NCBI RefSeq assembly: GCF_004014715.1
Contig: NZ_CP034834.1
Span: 1,264,533-1,328,532 of the forward strand
Length of the DNA: 64,000 nt
DNA from: Pseudoalteromonas sp. R3
GTDB lineage: Bacteria > Pseudomonadota > Gammaproteobacteria > Enterobacterales > Alteromonadaceae
Direction of reading: 5' to 3'
Shown: positions 55,556 to 64,000 of the stretch, in pieces
Layout: each line of letters opens with the position of its first letter
Numbering within the stretch: position 1 is the first letter of the stretch
Made by a program: the position numbers and the translations under genes
Notes under the pieces: generated by a model
What the model saw: the letters and a program-made list of their open reading frames with translations, nothing else
Database searches by the model: none
What the model was told of the DNA's origin: nothing

Positions 55556-55749
55556 AATAAATCCTTGTTATCTAGTGTGTTGTCGGATGAGTTTAATTGC
55601 CAAGAAAGTAACACGCCTTTGTATCTAATAACAGGCATTTAGCGACTTAATTTGCGCCGGATTGTAGATTTCTTTCATCAGCATTGGCACCGCCTTGCAA
55701 CCTCAAGTACAATGTGGGTTTTCGATTGCAATACACCGGAACCTTCCCC

Positions 55750-57933
55750 ATGGAAATCAAAGTAAATTATCTCGATAATCTTCGAATTGACGCTCGATTC
55801 GATGATTTTTCTGTCATTGCCGATCAGCCTATTCGCTATAAAGGTGATGGCTCGGCACCCAGCCCGTTCGATTATTTTCTGGCGTCGTCTGCGCTGTGTG
55901 CGGCTTACTTTGTGAAAGTGTATTGTAATGCGCGCGACATTCCGACCGACGGCATTCGCGTGGCACAGAACAACATTGTTGACCCCGAAAACCGCTATAA
56001 CCAGATCTTTAAAATTCAGGTAGAGCTACCAGAGAGCATTTCTGAAAAAGACCGTCAGGGCATTTTGCGCTCTATTGACCGCTGTACTGTGAAAAAAGTG
56101 ATCCAGACCGGTCCTGAATTTCAGGTTGAAGCAGTAGAGAGCCTGGATGACGATGCACAGGCTATGCTGATGGTTAACACTGAGTCAGATGCCAGCACTT
56201 TTATCCTCGGTAAAGATCTGCCACTGGAGCAGACCATCGCCAACATGACTGGCATTTTGTCTGATCTGGGCATGAAAATCGAAGTAGCGTCGTGGCGTAA
56301 CATTGTGCCTAACGTCTGGTCTTTACATATTCGTGATGCCGCATCACCGATGTGTTTTACCAATGGTAAAGGTGCGACTAAAGAAAGCGCGCTGTGCTCG
56401 GCACTGGGCGAGTTTATTGAGCGCCTGAACTGTAACTTTTTCTATAACGACCAGTTCTTTGGTGAAGAAATTGCCAACGCTGAGTTTGTTCATTACCCCA
56501 ATGAAAAGTGGTTTAAACCGGGTGAAAACGATGAACTGCCAAACGAAATCCTCGACGGCTACACGCGCGAAATCTATGATCCGGAAGGCGAGCTGCGCGG
56601 CTCAAACCTGATAGACACTAACTCGGGCAATGTGGAGCGTGGCATTTGCTCTATTCCTTACACCCGTCACAGCGACGGTGAAACGGTTTACTTCCCGTCG
56701 AATCTGATTGAAAACCTGTTCCTGAGTAATGGCATGAGCGCGGGTAACAACCTGTTTGAAGCCAAAGTACAGTGTTTGTCTGAGATCTTTGAGCGTGCGG
56801 TGAAAAAGCAGATCATAGAACAGGAAATCGTGCTGCCGGACGTACCTGAAGACGTACTGGCTAAGTTCCCGGGCATTGTGGCGGGTATTAAAGGGCTTGA
56901 AGAGCAAGGCTTCCCGGTTGTGGTAAAAGACGCCTCTCTGGGCGGCCAGTTCCCGGTCATGTGTGTGACCCTGATGAACCCGAAAACTGGCGGTGTGTTT
57001 GCCTCTTTTGGTGCGCACCCAAGCCTGGAAGTTGCGCTGGAGCGTAGCCTGACCGAGCTGTTGCAGGGCCGCAGCTTCGAAGGCCTGAACGACGTACCTA
57101 AGCCAACCTTTAACAGCATGGCAGTGTCTGAGCCGGAGAACTTTGTAGAGCACTTTATTGATTCTACCGGTGTGATCTCCTGGCGTTTCTTCAGTGCTAA
57201 GCATGATTATGAGTTTGTGGAGTGGGACTTCACGGGCACTAACGAAGAAGAGTGCGACAAACTGTTCGCCATTTTGAAAGATTTAGGTAAAGAAGCGTAT
57301 ATCGCTGAGTTTACCGATATGGGCACGGCGTGCCGTATTCTGGTACCTGGTTACTCTGAGGTTTACCCGGCAGAAGATTTAATCTGGGACAACACCAACA
57401 AAGCCCTGCAATACCGCGAAGATATTCTGAACATTCACTCGCTGGAAGACGAAGCACTGGCCGATTTGGTTAACCGTCTGGAAGAAAGCCAGCTTGATAA
57501 CTACATCGACATCATTACTTTGATCGGCGTGGAATTCGATGAAAACACGGTTTGGGGTCAGCTGACCATCTTAGAGCTGAAGATCCTCATCTATCTGGCG
57601 CTGGGTGACATTGAAGCCGCTATTGAGCTGGTCGAAACCTTCCTGCAATACAATGACAACACCGTTGAGCGTGGCCTGTTCTACCAGGCAATGCACGCGA
57701 CGCTGGAAGTGGCACTGGATGAAGAGCTGGAAATTGAAGACTACATCCACAGCTTTACCCGCATGTTCGGCAAAGAAGTGATGGACGCAGTGATCGGCTC
57801 TATCAATGGCGACGTGAAATTCTATGGCCTGACACCGACCAACATGCAACTGGAAGGTCTGGATAAGCACCTGCGCTTAATCGACAGCTATAAAAAGCTA
57901 CACGCTGCACGCGCTAAGTTTGCCAAAGGGTAA
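55750..57933 (+). CDS. ycaO: OsmC domain/YcaO-domain protein (ribosomal S12 methylthiotransferase accessory type)
   Basis: 727 residues from the ATG at 55750. An OsmC-like domain occupies about residues 1-140 (PIRYKGDGSAPSPFDYFLAS, ALCAAYFVKVYCNARD). The YcaO ATP-binding domain follows (about 160-560), with KGATKESALCSALGEFIERL (Mg/ATP ligands in the ESALxxxxGEFIER pattern) and FEAKVQCLSEIFERAVKKQI. A C-terminal TPR-like helical extension (about 590-727) completes the protein. This architecture is the conserved stand-alone YcaO of gammaproteobacteria, linked to methylthiolation of ribosomal protein S12 and not to a natural product. It is followed by a 10-bp-stem terminator and then the convergent RiPP locus. 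Confidence 0.9.
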   Translation: MEIKVNYLDNLRIDARFDDFSVIADQPIRYKGDGSAPSPFDYFLASSALCAAYFVKVYCNARDIPTDGIRVAQNNIVDPENRYNQIFKIQVELPESISEKDRQGILRSIDRCTVKKVIQTGPEFQVEAVESLDDDAQAMLMVNTESDASTFILGKDLPLEQTIANMTGILSDLGMKIEVASWRNIVPNVWSLHIRDAASPMCFTNGKGATKESALCSALGEFIERLNCNFFYNDQFFGEEIANAEFVHYPNEKWFKPGENDELPNEILDGYTREIYDPEGELRGSNLIDTNSGNVERGICSIPYTRHSDGETVYFPSNLIENLFLSNGMSAGNNLFEAKVQCLSEIFERAVKKQIIEQEIVLPDVPEDVLAKFPGIVAGIKGLEEQGFPVVVKDASLGGQFPVMCVTLMNPKTGGVFASFGAHPSLEVALERSLTELLQGRSFEGLNDVPKPTFNSMAVSEPENFVEHFIDSTGVISWRFFSAKHDYEFVEWDFTGTNEEECDKLFAILKDLGKEAYIAEFTDMGTACRILVPGYSEVYPAEDLIWDNTNKALQYREDILNIHSLEDEALADLVNRLEESQLDNYIDIITLIGVEFDENTVWGQLTILELKILIYLALGDIEAAIELVETFLQYNDNTVERGLFYQAMHATLEVALDEELEIEDYIHSFTRMFGKEVMDAVIGSINGDVKFYGLTPTNMQLEGLDKHLRLIDSYKKLHAARAKFAKG

Positions 57934-58191: not shown

Positions 58192-60189
58192 TTAAATATA
58201 CAACCCTTGTTGATTAATCGTCTGCTCGGTCAATGCTTCATCCAGCCAACCCAGTTTTACTGGTGTCTGGTAAAGCCGGGGGTTACCTAGTTGTGGCCAG
58301 ATGTGGCACAGTCCGGGTACAAAGACTTTAGCTGTACTCAGCGGAATGGGCGAGCGGGAATAATCCAGTGCCAGTGTTTCCATATCCAGGCTGTGTAGAT
58401 GTTCAACAATGGCCAGAATGTCATCTTTCAGGTCACCGCTCTGAGTCAGTTTATAACTTCCCCTTGGTGCCTGTACATCAGGCAGCAAAAAGCGGTCGCC
58501 TGTAATGGCATCAAAATCAAACGGTGCACCATTTTGGTCCCGGATAGGAATGAGCTGACATAACTCAGTGAGCGCACGTTGCGCAGCCATTTCGGGTTTT
58601 AAATGACAGCCAAATCCAAATACATACCCCTGGGTTGCTTTGTTACGGCCAATCGCTGCCATGACGGGGACGCCGGTATCTACGGTAAGATCCAATACCC
58701 AGTAGTCGTGTTCAGCGGTGATGGTTTCGTGCAGCGGTGCCAGATAATCAGGGTCCAAACCACTTAACTCAAATTGCGGGCGCGGTAAGCGGTTGTACCA
58801 CCAGATAGCGGTTGCATCACGCTCAAGCAATTCAAATAAAGCCTGTAAAATGGCCTCTTCCAGATTATTGCCTGCGGCACAGCCATTGGAATGCCATTTA
58901 CCAAAGCGGTCTTCCTCAAACGGCGTGTTGGCAAAGCAACAAACGGTAGGCACGTAAACCTTTTCATCGAGCGTGAGCGACCACAGTGCGGTCCAATTGA
59001 CGGCTTCCTCAGTATAAGGCAACGCAGCTTGCTTACGCTGAGATTCAGAATCTGCAGGGTCTGCAAAGCGCGCATACTGCTGCTCGCTGTAGGGCAGCAG
59101 CTGTGCAAAGTCATAATTGCGTGCATCAAGCTGTTGAACCTGTGCCACCTGACTTGGCTCATCGCCAATATACTGAGCGTTCTTGCGTTCTATTGCTTCA
59201 CACAGAGCGCTGGCTTTGGACTGCTCGTGCGTGACGCCTTTGCCTAGCGTTTGTTGGACAAAATCAGCACCACTAATTTGCTTCGGAGCTTTCATCGGGC
59301 ATTTGTAAAATCCTGAAGTGAATATCTTAATTGAGTCCAAAGGAGAGGACAGTTTAGTTTCAGGAAAAATATAACCCAGTTGGCGGCCAATAAATGGTAC
59401 AAGTTTTTTGAGTGTGTCTTCTGCTTTATACGCTCTTGAACCACCATCTGCATCATAGGCGATTGGAGTGCTTTTAAGAGATAATTCATATGTGCTATTA
59501 GAGTGCGGTATACGCTCCAAATTATCGAAATTATACTTGGCAGATGAGCCATGCTGAATATCAAAAACCAACGCTTCAACGCAGTCGAGGGTATTAACTA
59601 GCGAGCAAAGCTGTTTTGGTATTTTCGGGAAAGACAGCAAGCGACCGTTACCTTTACCAAACTTATCCATAAAGAGGTCGAGTGGCCGGCTGGCAAAAAT
59701 CCATGCCAAGTAACTCTCTAATTTGTCAGTACATGTTATAACCGGTGAAATATAAATGCTATTTTTATATACTTCACAAAACCTTAGGGGGAAATGTTCC
59801 TGCAAATTTGTTACTTTCCTAATATCTTCGATTAGTATGCAAGAGTTCTGCAAGTGTGACGATATACGCTGCCAGTTTTCTGCGAAGCTTTGTATGAAAC
59901 AACTTGATCCATATATCCCTTCGATAAGTTCTGTTTTCGTACCTTGTAGATCAACCGCTTCAACTAGCCAGCCTCTTTTAGTCGCGTTTTCTACTTGATA
60001 ATAAAAGTGGGCTAAAAGTTCGGCAGGAACACTTTTCGCCAGCTCATCAACATTTGTCAGGCTTTTGAAGTGTGAGAAGTAAGGGAAATTTTTGGCATCC
60101 AGAACAAATTCATTTGTTTGGCTGTTAAGCAAAACGTTATCATGCTTATCCGTAAAGATGCTGAATTTGCTATTAAACTTGAGTTTCAT
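58192..60189 (-). CDS. TOMM biosynthesis cyclodehydratase: leader-binding domain fused to YcaO (YcaO-1)
   Basis: 665 residues. The N-terminal 80 residues look like a winged-helix leader-binding (RRE) domain. Residues about 85-245 resemble a degenerate ThiF/ocin-type partner domain (EVYKNSIYISPVITC, LESYLAWIFASRPLDLFMDK), as in fused TOMM cyclodehydratases. The YcaO domain (about 265-665) carries SKASALCEAIERKNAQYIG and GCAAGNNLEEAILQALFELL, then ERDATAIWWYNRLPRPQF, the ATP/Mg-binding pattern. It ends in NQQGLYI and lacks the proline-rich C-terminus of many azoline synthetases. It would use ATP to convert Cys/Ser/Thr of the precursor to azolines. It is last in the operon, 7 bases after the amidotransferase gene. 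Confidence 0.88.
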   Translation of the reverse strand: MKLKFNSKFSIFTDKHDNVLLNSQTNEFVLDAKNFPYFSHFKSLTNVDELAKSVPAELLAHFYYQVENATKRGWLVEAVDLQGTKTELIEGIYGSSCFIQSFAENWQRISSHLQNSCILIEDIRKVTNLQEHFPLRFCEVYKNSIYISPVITCTDKLESYLAWIFASRPLDLFMDKFGKGNGRLLSFPKIPKQLCSLVNTLDCVEALVFDIQHGSSAKYNFDNLERIPHSNSTYELSLKSTPIAYDADGGSRAYKAEDTLKKLVPFIGRQLGYIFPETKLSSPLDSIKIFTSGFYKCPMKAPKQISGADFVQQTLGKGVTHEQSKASALCEAIERKNAQYIGDEPSQVAQVQQLDARNYDFAQLLPYSEQQYARFADPADSESQRKQAALPYTEEAVNWTALWSLTLDEKVYVPTVCCFANTPFEEDRFGKWHSNGCAAGNNLEEAILQALFELLERDATAIWWYNRLPRPQFELSGLDPDYLAPLHETITAEHDYWVLDLTVDTGVPVMAAIGRNKATQGYVFGFGCHLKPEMAAQRALTELCQLIPIRDQNGAPFDFDAITGDRFLLPDVQAPRGSYKLTQSGDLKDDILAIVEHLHSLDMETLALDYSRSPIPLSTAKVFVPGLCHIWPQLGNPRLYQTPVKLGWLDEALTEQTINQQGLYI

Positions 60190-60196
60190 AATATAG

Positions 60197-62009
60197 TTAT
60201 GCTTCTAAATTAAAGTGTTTTTGCAAAAACAGAATACTGAGGAAGTGGCAAACAACAATGTCTTCTGAAAAGTCTAGCTGAGTCTGATTTTTTACAACAG
60301 ACTCAAAAAAAGCAATGACTTTATCTATATCGTAAATACCCAATTGCGATTCTCTGTTAGACAATTCATGTAATTCATCTAGCAGATAAAGTGTAATGTT
60401 TTTGGTTAAGTTAGTCGGAGCTAAAAAAGGTTTTTTGATTTGCTCTACATGCAAATGAGGGAAATTCACAGTAAATGCGTCTCTTAAAATTCTCTTATTT
60501 TTACCATTGTAATACTTGAAGGCAGTTGGGAGTGAATGAATGAAAGCTACTAACGAGTTATCCAGAAAAGGCTGACGACCTTCAATTGAGTTTGCCAACT
60601 CAGTTTTATCACCCAGGGCAAGCAAGTTATAGTCCTGATATACAGTGTTGTAGTGGAGCCATTGGCTGTATCCAATGGAGGACGTGACTATGTCGCTGTG
60701 CGGCGCGACTAAGTGCGTTGTGTAACAAGCCTCAGAGAAGTCTGCAGAGCGCAGTGATTTAAATAACTGAGCGTTTGACTTAGCGCTTATAGTTGCACTG
60801 GGCGTAAAATTCAATGCAGTCTCAAGTGTGGCTTGACCTTCAAAAAGCGGAGTAGGTCCACTTTGTTGTGTTAAAGGAGAGCTCAAATCATATTGGAAAA
60901 ACTGATAGCCGAGCAATGATTCATCCGCCCCTTCTCCTGTTAGCGCAATTCTAATTCCGCTTTCTTTTACTTTACGGCTCAACAGATATTTGGCGGCAAC
61001 ATTTAAATTTGGCACTATCGATTCTGCGTGATAGATAGATTTTTCAAATGAACCAATGAGATCGTTGTGCTCTAGTGGAAGTGTATGGTGTTTAATTCCA
61101 ATCTGCTTAGCAAATTTTTCAGCTGCCAAGCTTTCATCCAAAGGGTTATTGGGAAATCCGATGCTGAATGATTCAGCTTTGTCACTCAGTCTAGCTGATA
61201 AAGCGCTGATGTATGATGAGTCTATGCCCGAGCTTAAGTAACAAGCGAAACGCTCTTGAGGTATTCTTTTGTTAACGGCTTGCTCAAACTGCTGGCTAAA
61301 CTCTTGCGTTGCCTGTTCGTAAGAAATATCACACGGTTCAAATAAATCGGGGTTAAAAGGGGATTGCTCGCAAAATGGGTAGCTTTTCAGTTCATTATTT
61401 GTGTGCTCAACTATATGACCAGGGGGACAGAAAAGACTCCTTTTACAAATGTTTCTTTGGCTCCTACTAAAAACCGTTCTTTTGCAACTAAATAGTGCTT
61501 ATTCCATACTGCTGGTACACCTGCAGACAGTAGAGCTTTAATTTCTGAAGCGGCTATAAAATAATCATCATTATGGTAGTAATAGAGTGGCTTGCTGCCA
61601 TTTCTGTCTCGGGCAAGGTATAGCCTATTGCTCTCTCTGTTGTAAGTACATAATGAAAACTCACCATCGAGACTCGCTACAAGCTGATTCCAAAAAGCTC
61701 TATACCTTTGAGTACATATTCGCTGTCAGAATTTGTTTGAAATACAGCTCCTTTTGCCTTTAGTTTTTCTCTGTCATTATATATCTCACCATTTACAGAA
61801 ATTATCCATGGGGTATTATCGGACAGCATTGGTTGGGTTGCTATTTTGCCACCATTAATTGCCAGTCTATTATGACCTATGTAAGTGTTATGGTTTTTAT
61901 CTGAATAGAGTCCCGTTTGGTCTGGCCCCCTGTGCTTCATAGATACAAGAGCTTGTGGGAGGTTCAATGATGAGGTTTTACTATATTGAGCTGCTAATAT
62001 TCCACACAT
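60197..62009 (-). CDS. Asparagine-synthetase-like amidotransferase of the RiPP locus (two frameshifts in this assembly)
   Basis: Three frame segments make one 604-residue asparagine synthase homologue. Segment 1 (ATG 62009) is a class II glutaminase domain with the nucleophile Cys2 (MCGILAAQ), HRGPDQTGL and VNGEIYND. Adding one base at the A5 run 61692-61696 continues WNQLVASLDGEFSLCTYNRE, LARDRNGSKPLYYY, SEIKALLSAG. Adding one more at the G5 run 61422-61426 continues PPGHIVEH. The synthetase domain then follows, with the PP-loop YLSSGIDSSYISAL and ALTGEGADESLLGYQFF, ending at 60197. With both Cys2 and the PP-loop intact it should transfer glutamine-derived ammonia to an adenylated carboxylate. 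It is likely to act on the precursor peptide. Confidence 0.85.
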
Positions 62010-62036
62010 AAAAACTAACTAATGTAGAGGGGTAAT

Positions 62037-62070
62037 AGAGTTTTACATGTAAATTCACATGTAAAACTCT
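62037..62070 (-). terminator. Strong hairpin between precursor and amidotransferase genes
   Basis: Perfect 14-bp stem (AGAGTTTTACATGT and complement) around 6 bases, lying 16 bases past the precursor stop. No T-run follows on the minus strand (ATTACCCC), so it should act as an attenuator or a 3'-end stabiliser rather than a full stop. That would give more precursor than enzyme mRNA. Confidence 0.65.
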
Positions 62071-62085
62071 AATGGATTTATGTTT

Positions 62086-63168
62086 TTAACAGGTGAATGG
62101 GAAACCTGGACCATCGTTGTTATAACGAGTTAGAGCAACAGGTTGACTCGCTTTATCATCTGGTGCTTCAGGGAAAGATAAAATAATACCAAGAGGAGTT
62201 TTTTGAACCTGCTGGTAATTTCCTTCACTTTCAACGCACCAAACCCACTTATCAATTGCAATTGTTGACTCTGATACGGAAATGGATTCAATATCTTTGG
62301 GTGAAATCTGCTTATCGAGTACAAACAGAAGTTTGTCACGAGACGCAGAGAGAGCTCTCGCACTTAGTTTAAAGGTTGATTCATCAAGCAAGTATGCAAC
62401 TGTTCCCCGAAGCTGTTCACCGGAACGCAGTGTCAGTGCAGCATCAAAAGTTCTTGCATATTTAGCAAGCTTATCTTTCTTTACTATTAGGTCTACATCC
62501 CAAGGGTAGTCATAGTCTAGCCAATCCTTTAGCAATTTAGTGGCATGACCAATAGTGTTTGTAGAACTATGAGAGATAGTTTCTTCAATGAGGCTATTGC
62601 TAAATTTAGTGTTTGACCATGCGAGAGCAACAGCTGCGGCCATTACTCCACCAAACTCAACGAAGTGTGTGTTGCTGTTACCTAGGTCGTAACTTGCTTC
62701 TGGGATCAACCCATCTTTCATAGATGGAAATATGAAAGCACTTTCAGGGTGGTCTTTGTGCCCTGAAGCACACAATGTGTCAAAGACTTGTTGCAGTGAA
62801 AGGTTGGGATGATTTACATCGTCAGTGATACTCTCTAATATCCAAGAGTTATCGAAATAATAATGCGAAAGTGCTTCTGCTGGATTTGGAATAGCGGGTT
62901 TTTCCGGCACGGAGACAACAAACTTATCGAAAGATAAAGAGTCGGTCATATATACGCCTCTTGCCTCATTGTAGAAAGGCCCTTCGCCGAGATCCTTGAT
63001 AGAAAATTGAATATTCCATGGGCATTTATAACCGAAGTATTTGTCTAGGACAGATAGTGCATTTCCGGGCAAGCATAGCTCTTTTCTAAATTCTTCGTCA
63101 TTCCATGCTTTTGCAATGGCTTTTAAGTATGTTGCACGAAAGTCAAGCAATTGTTTCGTTAGTTCCAT
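62086..63168 (-). CDS. TOMM-type RiPP precursor with duplicated leader-like domain and C-terminal core
   Basis: 360 residues, far longer than most precursors, with AAGGAG before the ATG. Two related domains are visible: residues about 8-58 (LKAIAKAWNDEEFRKELC, FGYKCPWNIQFSIKD) and about 175-235 (AAAVALAWSNTKFSNSLI, LDYDYPWDVDLIVKKD). Both follow the AIAxAWxDxxF...LGYxxPWxxxLxVxxD pattern of nitrile-hydratase-like (NHLP) leaders, as in the BMA_0021/0022-type TOMM precursors. The C-terminus reads YNNDGPGFPFTC with the stop right after Cys. From memory PGFPFTC is a hallmark of that family. The likely modified residues are Thr and Cys at the end. It lies 12 bases downstream of YcaO-2. Confidence 0.85.
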   Translation of the reverse strand: MELTKQLLDFRATYLKAIAKAWNDEEFRKELCLPGNALSVLDKYFGYKCPWNIQFSIKDLGEGPFYNEARGVYMTDSLSFDKFVVSVPEKPAIPNPAEALSHYYFDNSWILESITDDVNHPNLSLQQVFDTLCASGHKDHPESAFIFPSMKDGLIPEASYDLGNSNTHFVEFGGVMAAAVALAWSNTKFSNSLIEETISHSSTNTIGHATKLLKDWLDYDYPWDVDLIVKKDKLAKYARTFDAALTLRSGEQLRGTVAYLLDESTFKLSARALSASRDKLLFVLDKQISPKDIESISVSESTIAIDKWVWCVESEGNYQQVQKTPLGIILSFPEAPDDKASQPVALTRYNNDGPGFPFTC

Positions 63169-63180
63169 TTTTTCTCCTTG

Positions 63181-64000
63181 TTAAATGTATAACCCTTGTT
63201 GGTTTATTGTTTGCTCTGTGAGTGGCTGTTCTAACCACCCGAGTTTTACTGGTGTCTGGTAAAGCCGGGGGTTGCCTAGTTGAGGCCACATGTGACATAG
63301 ACCCGGAGCGAATAGCTTGACTGTATTGATAGGAATGTCTGGCCTTGTGTAATTCAACAGCAATACCTCAATATTCAACGTATCCAGCTGCTTGGCTATA
63401 GCTTCGATCATTACCTTCAAGTTTTCAGAGAATTGTATACTTTTATTAGCAGGTAAAACGTCTTCATGTGGCATTAGATAATTGCCAGTATCGATTTTAC
63501 TTCTATCAAATATACAGCTGTTTTGCTCTTTTGCTGCTATTAATTGGCAAAGTTCTGTCAGTGCTCGTTGTGCTGCAATTTCCTCAACAATGTGGCAACC
63601 AAATCCAAAACTATATTTGCCTGAAGCTTTTTCTCTTCCAATTGCTGCAATCACAGTTACGCCAACATCGTTTGTGATATCTAATAACCAATAGTCAAAG
63701 TCTTTCCCAGGGTTTGATCACATCGTTCGAGTAATGTGGTAGCTAGCTTGTCCATACTAAATGCAGGCCGAGCTACTTTGTTGTACCACCAGATGGCGAT
63801 TGCATCTCGCTCAATTAGCTCTAGTAACCCTTGTAGCGTTGCCTCTTCAATTGTATTTCCCGCTGCGCAACCATTTGAATGCCACCTGCCAAATTTCTCA
63901 TCTTCAAAAGGTGTGTTTGAAAAGCAAAAGGTAAAGGGAACGTATACTGGTGATTTTTTTATCAAAGAGGTTGCTTTGTACCAAAGCGTTTCTTGGTCGG
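63181..64000 (-). CDS. Second TOMM YcaO protein (YcaO-2), cut by the window edge and frameshifted
   Basis: The visible C-terminal part matches YcaO-1. A first frame open to the right edge contains VYVPFTFCFSNTPFEDEKFG, WHSNGCAAGNTIEEATLQGL and IERDAIAIWWYNKVARPAFS. It stops at 63681 after LGKTLTIGY. The second frame gives FDYWLLDITNDVGVTVIAAI, FGFGCHIVEEIAAQRALTEL and ends NQQGLYI at 63181. One added base at 63703-63708 (TTT or CCC run) restores a single frame. The last 47 residues match YcaO-1 at 40 positions. The N-terminal domains and the promoter lie outside the window. It is probably the first visible gene of the precursor operon. Confidence 0.85.

Follow-up and report, generated by a model that had tools for sequence, protein, structure and literature searches.

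Two YcaO enzymes and an AsnB-like protein in a putative kinase-linked RiPP locus of Pseudoalteromonas sp. R3

Precursors matching the model TIGR03795 are described, in the passages of PMC2887384 (2010) that deal with Burkholderia, Delftia and Acidovorax, as tandem or fused pairs, one member of which ends in Cys or Cys-Cys, lying near cyclodehydratase-docking fusions and a large Ser/Thr kinase; tandem and fused precursors are described again in passages of PMC4603692. The main text of the former contains neither 'amidohydrolase' nor 'asparagine synth', and the words asparagine, amidotransferase and kinase are absent from the main text of the latter. For thiostrepton, passages of PMC4525488 attribute the terminal amide to the asparagine synthetase-like TsrC, which takes its nitrogen from Gln and acts after the deesterase TsrB. 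The present analysis concerns a 64,000-base stretch of DNA from Pseudoalteromonas sp. R3 (the window), which forms the end of a contig of 1,328,532 bp (C1). Its last part appears to hold the distal half of a kinase-linked locus of the NHLP-Burk, or BMA_0021/BMA_0022, type, for a ribosomally synthesised and post-translationally modified peptide (RiPP) of the thiazole/oxazole-modified microcin (TOMM) class, in which two YcaO enzymes are combined with an AsnB-like protein. We hold this identification, jointly with the mechanism proposed below, with middling confidence.

An earlier note on this DNA had described a YcaO-2, a large precursor, an AsnB-like protein and a YcaO-1 encoded in one direction, had read them as a TOMM-type RiPP locus with two YcaOs and a glutamine-dependent AsnB-like enzyme, and had expected the locus to continue to the right. 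Each of these points is supported: within the window the transcription order on the minus strand is the 3' part of YcaO-1, precursor B, the AsnB-like gene and YcaO-2, and the locus runs over the end of C1 and resumes at its base 1, where it occupies the first 6.9 kb. C1 is probably circular, since YcaO-1 spans the contig end into the first bases. The complete gene order is kinase/cyclase, precursor A, Amidohydro_2 protein, YcaO-1, precursor B, AsnB-like gene and YcaO-2. The features are as follows; the last four lie beyond the window, and three of these are numbered within C1:1-20000 (L006).

58192-60189, minus strand: YcaO-2, 665 aa, putative azoline-forming cyclodehydratase (PF02624, 257.9 bits)
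60197-62009, minus strand: putative AsnB-like glutamine-dependent amidotransferase, in three frames (GATase_6 in the N-terminal part, 53.9 bits; Asn_synthase PF00733 in the C-terminal part, 131.2 bits)
62086-63168, minus strand: precursor B, 360 aa, TOMM precursor of the BMA_0021/BMA_0022 family (TIGR03795, 122.5 bits against a cut-off of 41, in three stretches)
62089-62124, minus strand: presumed core peptide YNNDGPGFPFTC, the last 12 residues of precursor B, near-invariant in homologues
63181-64000, minus strand: 3' part of YcaO-1, its frame broken once near 63.71 kb (both window pieces match PF02624)
C1:1-1267, minus strand: 5' part of YcaO-1, 422 aa (PF02624)
L006:1285-2496, minus strand: Amidohydro_2 protein (PF04909)
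L006:2490-2963, minus strand: precursor A, 157 aa, ending PITGC (TIGR03795, 41.3 bits, borderline at the cut-off of 41)
L006:2966-6901, minus strand: TOMM kinase/cyclase, 1311 aa, kinase/AAA/TPR (TIGR03903, 881.3 bits against a cut-off of 705.75)

TIGR03903 is the NCBI model for the TOMM kinase/cyclase. The scores of YcaO-2, of the C-terminal part of AsnB and of precursor B lie well beyond chance. The nearest named proteins of the locus products are from P. rubra and P. aurantia, the bacterium being probably near P. rubra, and the solved structures nearest to the amidohydrolase by sequence are those of amidohydrolases and ACMSD-type decarboxylases.

Precursor B can be read as two leader-like domains followed by a core, and its predicted structure (mean predicted local distance difference test score, pLDDT, 72.1) has two similar helix/strand blocks. 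Conservation is concentrated at its end: among homologues of precursor B (n=10, itself included), 10 of the 12 tail residues are invariant, as against 55 of 348 elsewhere (Fisher p ~1e-6). The tail follows the pattern YNxDGxGFPFTC, in which GFPFTC does not vary over the 10 aligned sequences, and both precursors of the locus have a C-terminal Cys, precursor B ending in PFTC and precursor A in PITGC. More widely, 21 of 58 kinases (53 from the fetched loci of the genus, plus L043-L045 and L251-L252, L043 being a repeat of L035 and the other four lying outside the genus) have a downstream open reading frame (ORF) with P-x-[TS]-[CTSG] in its last nine residues, two of which (L214, L227) look spurious.

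Foldseek ranks the heterocyclase LynD first for the modelled structure of YcaO-2 (mean pLDDT 87.4), at E 3.1e-49 and a template modelling (TM) score, normalised by query length, of 0.74 across 771 alignment columns; MusD and TruD come next. In sequence the match to LynD is confined to residues 235-660. The N-terminal part may be read as a region resembling a RiPP recognition element (RRE) plus an E1-like one, fused to the YcaO domain, and its initial 70 residues have an RRE-like succession of strands and helices; TIGR03882 is absent from the matches at E <= 0.01 of both YcaO-2 and the 5' part of YcaO-1, LynD still being the best fold match of YcaO-2. In relatives YcaO-1 is uninterrupted, with 695-aa frames in L033 and L039.

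The AsnB-like protein belongs to a group of its own. A homologue search with the intact copy of L034 as query, from which the best 120 of 7910 matches were taken (P0001-P0120), returned three Pseudoalteromonas clusters at 61-97% identity to that copy, then P0004-P0022 at 38-43% identity with scores down to 427 bits, the named sources of which are Psychromonas, Litoribacillus, Thalassomonas, Oceanospirillum and Kordia; the score then drops to 357 bits at P0023 and to 300 bits or less from P0024 onward. A 68-row tree (P0001-P0060 plus eight locus copies) splits off P0001-P0023 and six locus copies by a 100/100 branch, with L253 and L264 on the opposite side; the group set in advance had lacked P0023, and the clade label needed two changes. 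The motif GEGADESLxGY occurs in 23/23 rows P0001-P0023 and in 0/97 rows P0024-P0120. The glutaminase Cys2 is found in 22/23 clade rows, the remaining one having four residues ahead of MCG, and the PP-loop in 22/23 by pattern. In a comparison that took in 118 of 120 YcaO rows, 12 of the 22 rows P0001-P0022 apparently come from the same genome as a YcaO homologue, against 0 of the 98 rows P0023-P0120. A search at the order level (345 genomes, E <= 1e-90) gave six AsnB matches, namely the window, three Psychromonas, and the non-clade G104 and G1109, and one at the class level (369 genomes, wider AsnB profile, E <= 1e-120) gave four, the window and L269-L271. The AsnBs of L269-L271, which were not placed in the tree, are without GEGADESLxGY, and there was no kinase, YcaO or precursor match in the DNA fetched around them (only 7.6 kb for L270); nor was there a kinase or YcaO match in that of L253, outside the clade. 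Since these AsnBs occur without such a locus, and L264 falls outside the clade, the presence of an AsnB is not by itself a marker of the system. Judged from its sequences, the GEGADESLxGY clade is a distinct one, tied to YcaO in two genera.

Among 147 related genomes, that of the window included, TIGR03795 was matched at E <= 0.001 in 13 (in 7 over cut-off), and a kinase exceeded the TIGR03903 cut-off in 40, all of them Pseudoalteromonas. The genus gave 55 kinase matches, of which 54, in 53 loci including the window, were examined (the partial match G054:C135 was left out), with ~8-20 kb fetched per locus and some loci cut by contig ends (e.g. L228, L230, L231). A YcaO gene not of the E. coli type (profile score > 350) is present in 25 of the 53, an amidohydrolase of the present type in 19, and AsnB in five (the window, L033, L034, L040, L041), in all five immediately upstream of YcaO-2. 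Because 48 of the 53 show no such AsnB in the fetched, in part contig-cut DNA, the AsnB-like gene is an accessory module and not a defining part of the kinase loci. Searched from the other side, AsnB matches at E <= 1e-80 occur in six of the 147 relatives, five being of the clade type and all five lying in a kinase/precursor/YcaO locus, while the sixth genome, G104, is outside the clade. The earlier note had staked its reading on conservation of the AsnB-like gene with the precursor: seen from the AsnB clade (5/5 in such a locus, with recurrence in Psychromonas) this test speaks for the note's reading as far as the present sub-type goes, whereas among the kinase loci, 48 of 53 showing no such AsnB in the fetched DNA, the association is not general.

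Gene order in L034 is as in the window. L033 has in addition a third YcaO, a precursor C with the C-terminus PFTT and a small protein that finds no Pfam match. The genes of L040 and L041 are those for kinase, precursor C, a relative of the L033 small protein, YcaO-3, AsnB and YcaO-2; an amidohydrolase is absent. L039 contains only kinase, precursor A, amidohydrolase and YcaO-1. The window, L033, L034, L039 and L041 have common flanks: an E. coli-type ycaO borders them at one end, and a 412-aa protein together with a formyltransferase-domain protein at the opposite end. They thus represent one site with exchangeable cassettes. Outside Pseudoalteromonas, each of the Psychromonas loci L261-L263 has a kinase (truncated in L262 where the fetched DNA ends), a precursor ending PFSC, PFTC or PFTCV, a YcaO and an AsnB; L261 and L262 have a second YcaO, and these three, like L040 and L041, have AsnB without amidohydrolase. 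Among the best 80 of 588 kinase-alignment matches in wider contigs, only L043-L045 looked like class members by identity and matched length.

Our preferred reading, to which we give about an even chance, is that an azoline is formed at the GFPFTC tail of precursor B and that the carboxyl end of this peptide is then amidated. The earlier note had likewise suggested azolines plus amidation of a carboxylate, a chemistry that is plausible. Two modules would work under one kinase: module A (precursor A, amidohydrolase, YcaO-1), which is seen by itself in L039, and module B (precursor B, AsnB, YcaO-2). In module B, the nitrile-hydratase-like leader would dock on the RRE-like N-terminus of YcaO-2, and the YcaO domain of this enzyme would spend ATP on cyclising the terminal Thr-Cys of GFPFTC to a thiazoline; the AsnB-like enzyme would then hydrolyse glutamine, adenylate the C-terminal carboxylate and make the carboxamide. 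Heterocyclases of the fused RRE-YcaO kind consume ATP in cyclising Ser, Thr or Cys; AsnB-type enzymes take ammonia from glutamine to amidate an adenylated carboxylate. The earlier note had seen no dehydrogenase or transporter, and likewise none is recognisable among the genes from kinase to YcaO-2. The SagB-type dehydrogenase model (TIGR03605) has no match in the genome at E <= 0.001, so that, barring the action of some other enzyme, azolines would not be oxidised. With the NHLM transporter/peptidase model there are 66 matches in the genome, all below its cut-off and none within the window or C1:1-20000; no PatA/G-type protease was recognised in the locus, proteases not having been searched for genome-wide.

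Several observations weigh against this reading. YcaO-2 scores 194.5 bits with TIGR03604, under the cut-off of 219.25; the rmsd (root-mean-square deviation) of its alignment with LynD is 20.9, so the domains may be positioned differently; and none of 120 listed YcaO homologues ends in PxPxP, a tail typical of TOMM YcaOs. A fold search of the precursor B model against the PDB gave no match at E <= 0.001, and the nitrile-hydratase-like leader therefore rests on weak sequence matches. Precursor C in the AsnB-bearing L033, L040 and L041 lacks the terminal Cys, which rules out a thiazoline at the final position as a general feature, and no C-terminal residue cleanly separates the precursors of AsnB-bearing from those of AsnB-lacking loci. 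In Psychromonas, only in L261 does AsnB stand ahead of a YcaO, whereas in L262 and L263 it comes after one, and, these loci having been located via AsnB, their 3/3 is a recurrence and not an independent rate. Finally, two genes of the locus are broken in the window: asnB carries single-base length differences at ~61.68 and ~61.43 kb, and ycaO-1 a third at ~63.71 kb.

These breaks raise the possibility, which we consider doubtful but real, that asnB and ycaO-1 are true pseudogenes and that the system is decaying, and partly or wholly non-working, in the present strain. The earlier note had called Cys2 and the PP-loop intact; both motifs are indeed readable in the letters of the window (the MCGI start and SSGIDSS), but in a gene broken over three frames. 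Three breaks within ~2.3 kb across two genes speak for decay, and the remaining locus genes (precursor B, YcaO-2, kinase, amidohydrolase) have open frames. All three are single-base length differences, however, and two of them are clean homopolymer differences of the kind usual in long-read assembly error, the one at ~61.68 kb lying in a T-rich stretch with nearby substitutions. Over the compared stretches, moreover, asnB is otherwise 95.9% identical to its closest open relative (L034) and ycaO-1 98.3% (L033); intact AsnBs of 604-605 aa (605 in L034) exist in four Pseudoalteromonas relatives, and the intact P0001 is 95.6-99.1% identical to the window pieces. On these sequences, assembly error seems the likelier cause of the breaks, and the locus may be functional in this strain.

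It is also conceivable, though unlikely, that the YcaOs, partnered by AsnB, catalyse something other than azoline formation, such as amidine or thioamide synthesis or ATP-dependent peptide cleavage. MusD (7u58, an entry whose title speaks of YcaO-mediated ATP-dependent peptidase activity) ranks with the top fold matches of YcaO-2, the genome is without a SagB match and precursor C has its PFTT end; but it is the heterocyclase LynD that matches best, and many precursors of the class end in Ser/Thr-Cys. Improbable in our view is a macrolactam or isopeptide cyclase, in which the AsnB-like enzyme would adenylate a carboxylate, that of the NxDG Asp or of the C-terminus, for attack by a peptide amine in lasso fashion. 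Lasso cyclases are AsnB relatives, the L034 copy scoring 142.3 bits with their model NF033535, and the Asp of the tail pattern is invariant in the 10 aligned homologues of precursor B. That score is far under the cut-off of 525, however, several other precursors of the class do not conserve the Asp, and Cys2 and the other glutaminase positions, superfluous for a pure cyclase, are conserved across the clade. We attach a similarly low probability to AsnB working on a small molecule, or making free asparagine, and merely travelling with the locus. The intact L034 copy does exceed the cut-off of TIGR01536 (333.6 against 267.1 bits; the window pieces, at 116.3 and 81.6 bits, fall under it because the gene is broken), but it is below the cut-off of 499 of the housekeeping asparagine synthase B model NF006949 (229.1 bits), and its clade is separate and YcaO-linked in two genera. 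A housekeeping role in asparagine synthesis is rejected in view of a separate asparagine synthase B on C2 (NF006949, 942.9 bits against 499), which also makes free asparagine an unlikely product. Very improbable, finally, is a joint action of AsnB and YcaO-2 in place of a sequential one, in which ammonia from glutamine, or an amide put in by AsnB, would serve the ATP-dependent YcaO step as nucleophile or substrate and yield a C-terminal amidine, nitrile or amidated azoline; such a pair would be analogous to the thioamide-making YcaO-TfuA pair.

Beyond the locus, a further YcaO gene lies at its YcaO-2 end:

55684-57933, plus strand: ycaO, E. coli-type as read from length and sequence

This gene recurs as a neighbour of such loci and lies outside the locus itself. 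Kinase loci adjoin an E. coli-type ycaO in the window, L033, L034, L039, L041, L212, L215, L216 and L220, and also in L226, L227, L229, L234, L237 and L241, as if its surroundings were an insertion hot spot for them. Rfam and tRNA scans of the 64-kb window gave no matches. By eye, the 3' ends of ycaO-1 (63181-63310) and ycaO-2 (58192-58310) have long identical DNA stretches in common, and P0243 and precursor B are alike over their last 65-70 residues and diverge upstream; both are signs of recombination between cassettes. In L218, L220-L224, L226-L229, L231-L235, L237, L239-L243 and L245-L248 there is no YcaO of the present family in the fetched DNA, and the kinase is followed by ORFs of ~80-500 aa, several with a C-terminal Trp (KTIW, AAMRW, KATW); four proteins beside these ORFs were scanned and none had a Pfam match. 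The Trp-ending ORFs may represent a further class of substrates for this kinase. Genes for PhyH-type 2-oxoglutarate/Fe(II) oxygenases (2OG-Fe(II)) lie near the amidohydrolase in L032, L035, L037, L215, L216, L225, L236, L238 and L244, recognised by Pfam in L032 and elsewhere by a profile from three copies; the small protein of L033, L040 and L041, of which the L033 copy is the one that was scanned against Pfam, stands at a similar place. A 417-aa protein is encoded on the opposite strand within two Psychromonas loci (L262:14172-15425 and L263:5251-6504), the L263 copy with a weak radical-SAM match (16.5 bits, under the cut-off of 29.5).

The loci compared show the class to be modular in marine Gammaproteobacteria, a single kinase being combined with swappable precursor/YcaO cassettes, and a distinct clade of putative AsnB-like amidotransferases, which can be mined for by its GEGADESLxGY motif, is bound to one cassette. 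With intact copies in sister strains, a near-invariant tail of 12 residues and a clear mass prediction, the chemistry is open to direct testing. The earlier note knew of no characterised product for this enzyme set. In searches of open-licence papers we likewise came upon no paper on a product of the kinase-linked BMA_0021/BMA_0022 class and none with the present AsnB combination in the TIGR03795 class; passages of PMC2887384, however, already describe the class in 2010, and passages of PMC4525488 describe amidation by an AsnB-like enzyme. The locus shares the AsnB superfamily with the lasso peptide cyclases and differs from them in its NF033535 score and its retained glutaminase residues. Cyanobactins have other precursors and PatA/G proteases. 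YcaO-2 resembles their heterocyclases LynD and TruD both in fold and, over residues 235-660, in sequence, whereas the leaders here are long and the locus has no recognised PatA/G-like protease. Thiostrepton, also an azole RiPP, has a C-terminal amide made by an AsnB-like enzyme, as passages of PMC4525488 describe it, and so offers a precedent for the proposed step, although it is a thiopeptide made with other enzymes and is likened here by description, not by comparison with the TsrC sequence. Closest of all are the NHLP-Burk or BMA_0021/BMA_0022 clusters, with which the locus has in common the precursor and kinase families, the C-terminal Cys, a fused precursor pair and perhaps an N-terminally fused cyclodehydratase, and from which it is set apart by its Pseudoalteromonas and Psychromonas hosts, its two YcaO enzymes, its AsnB-like enzyme and its Amidohydro_2 protein.

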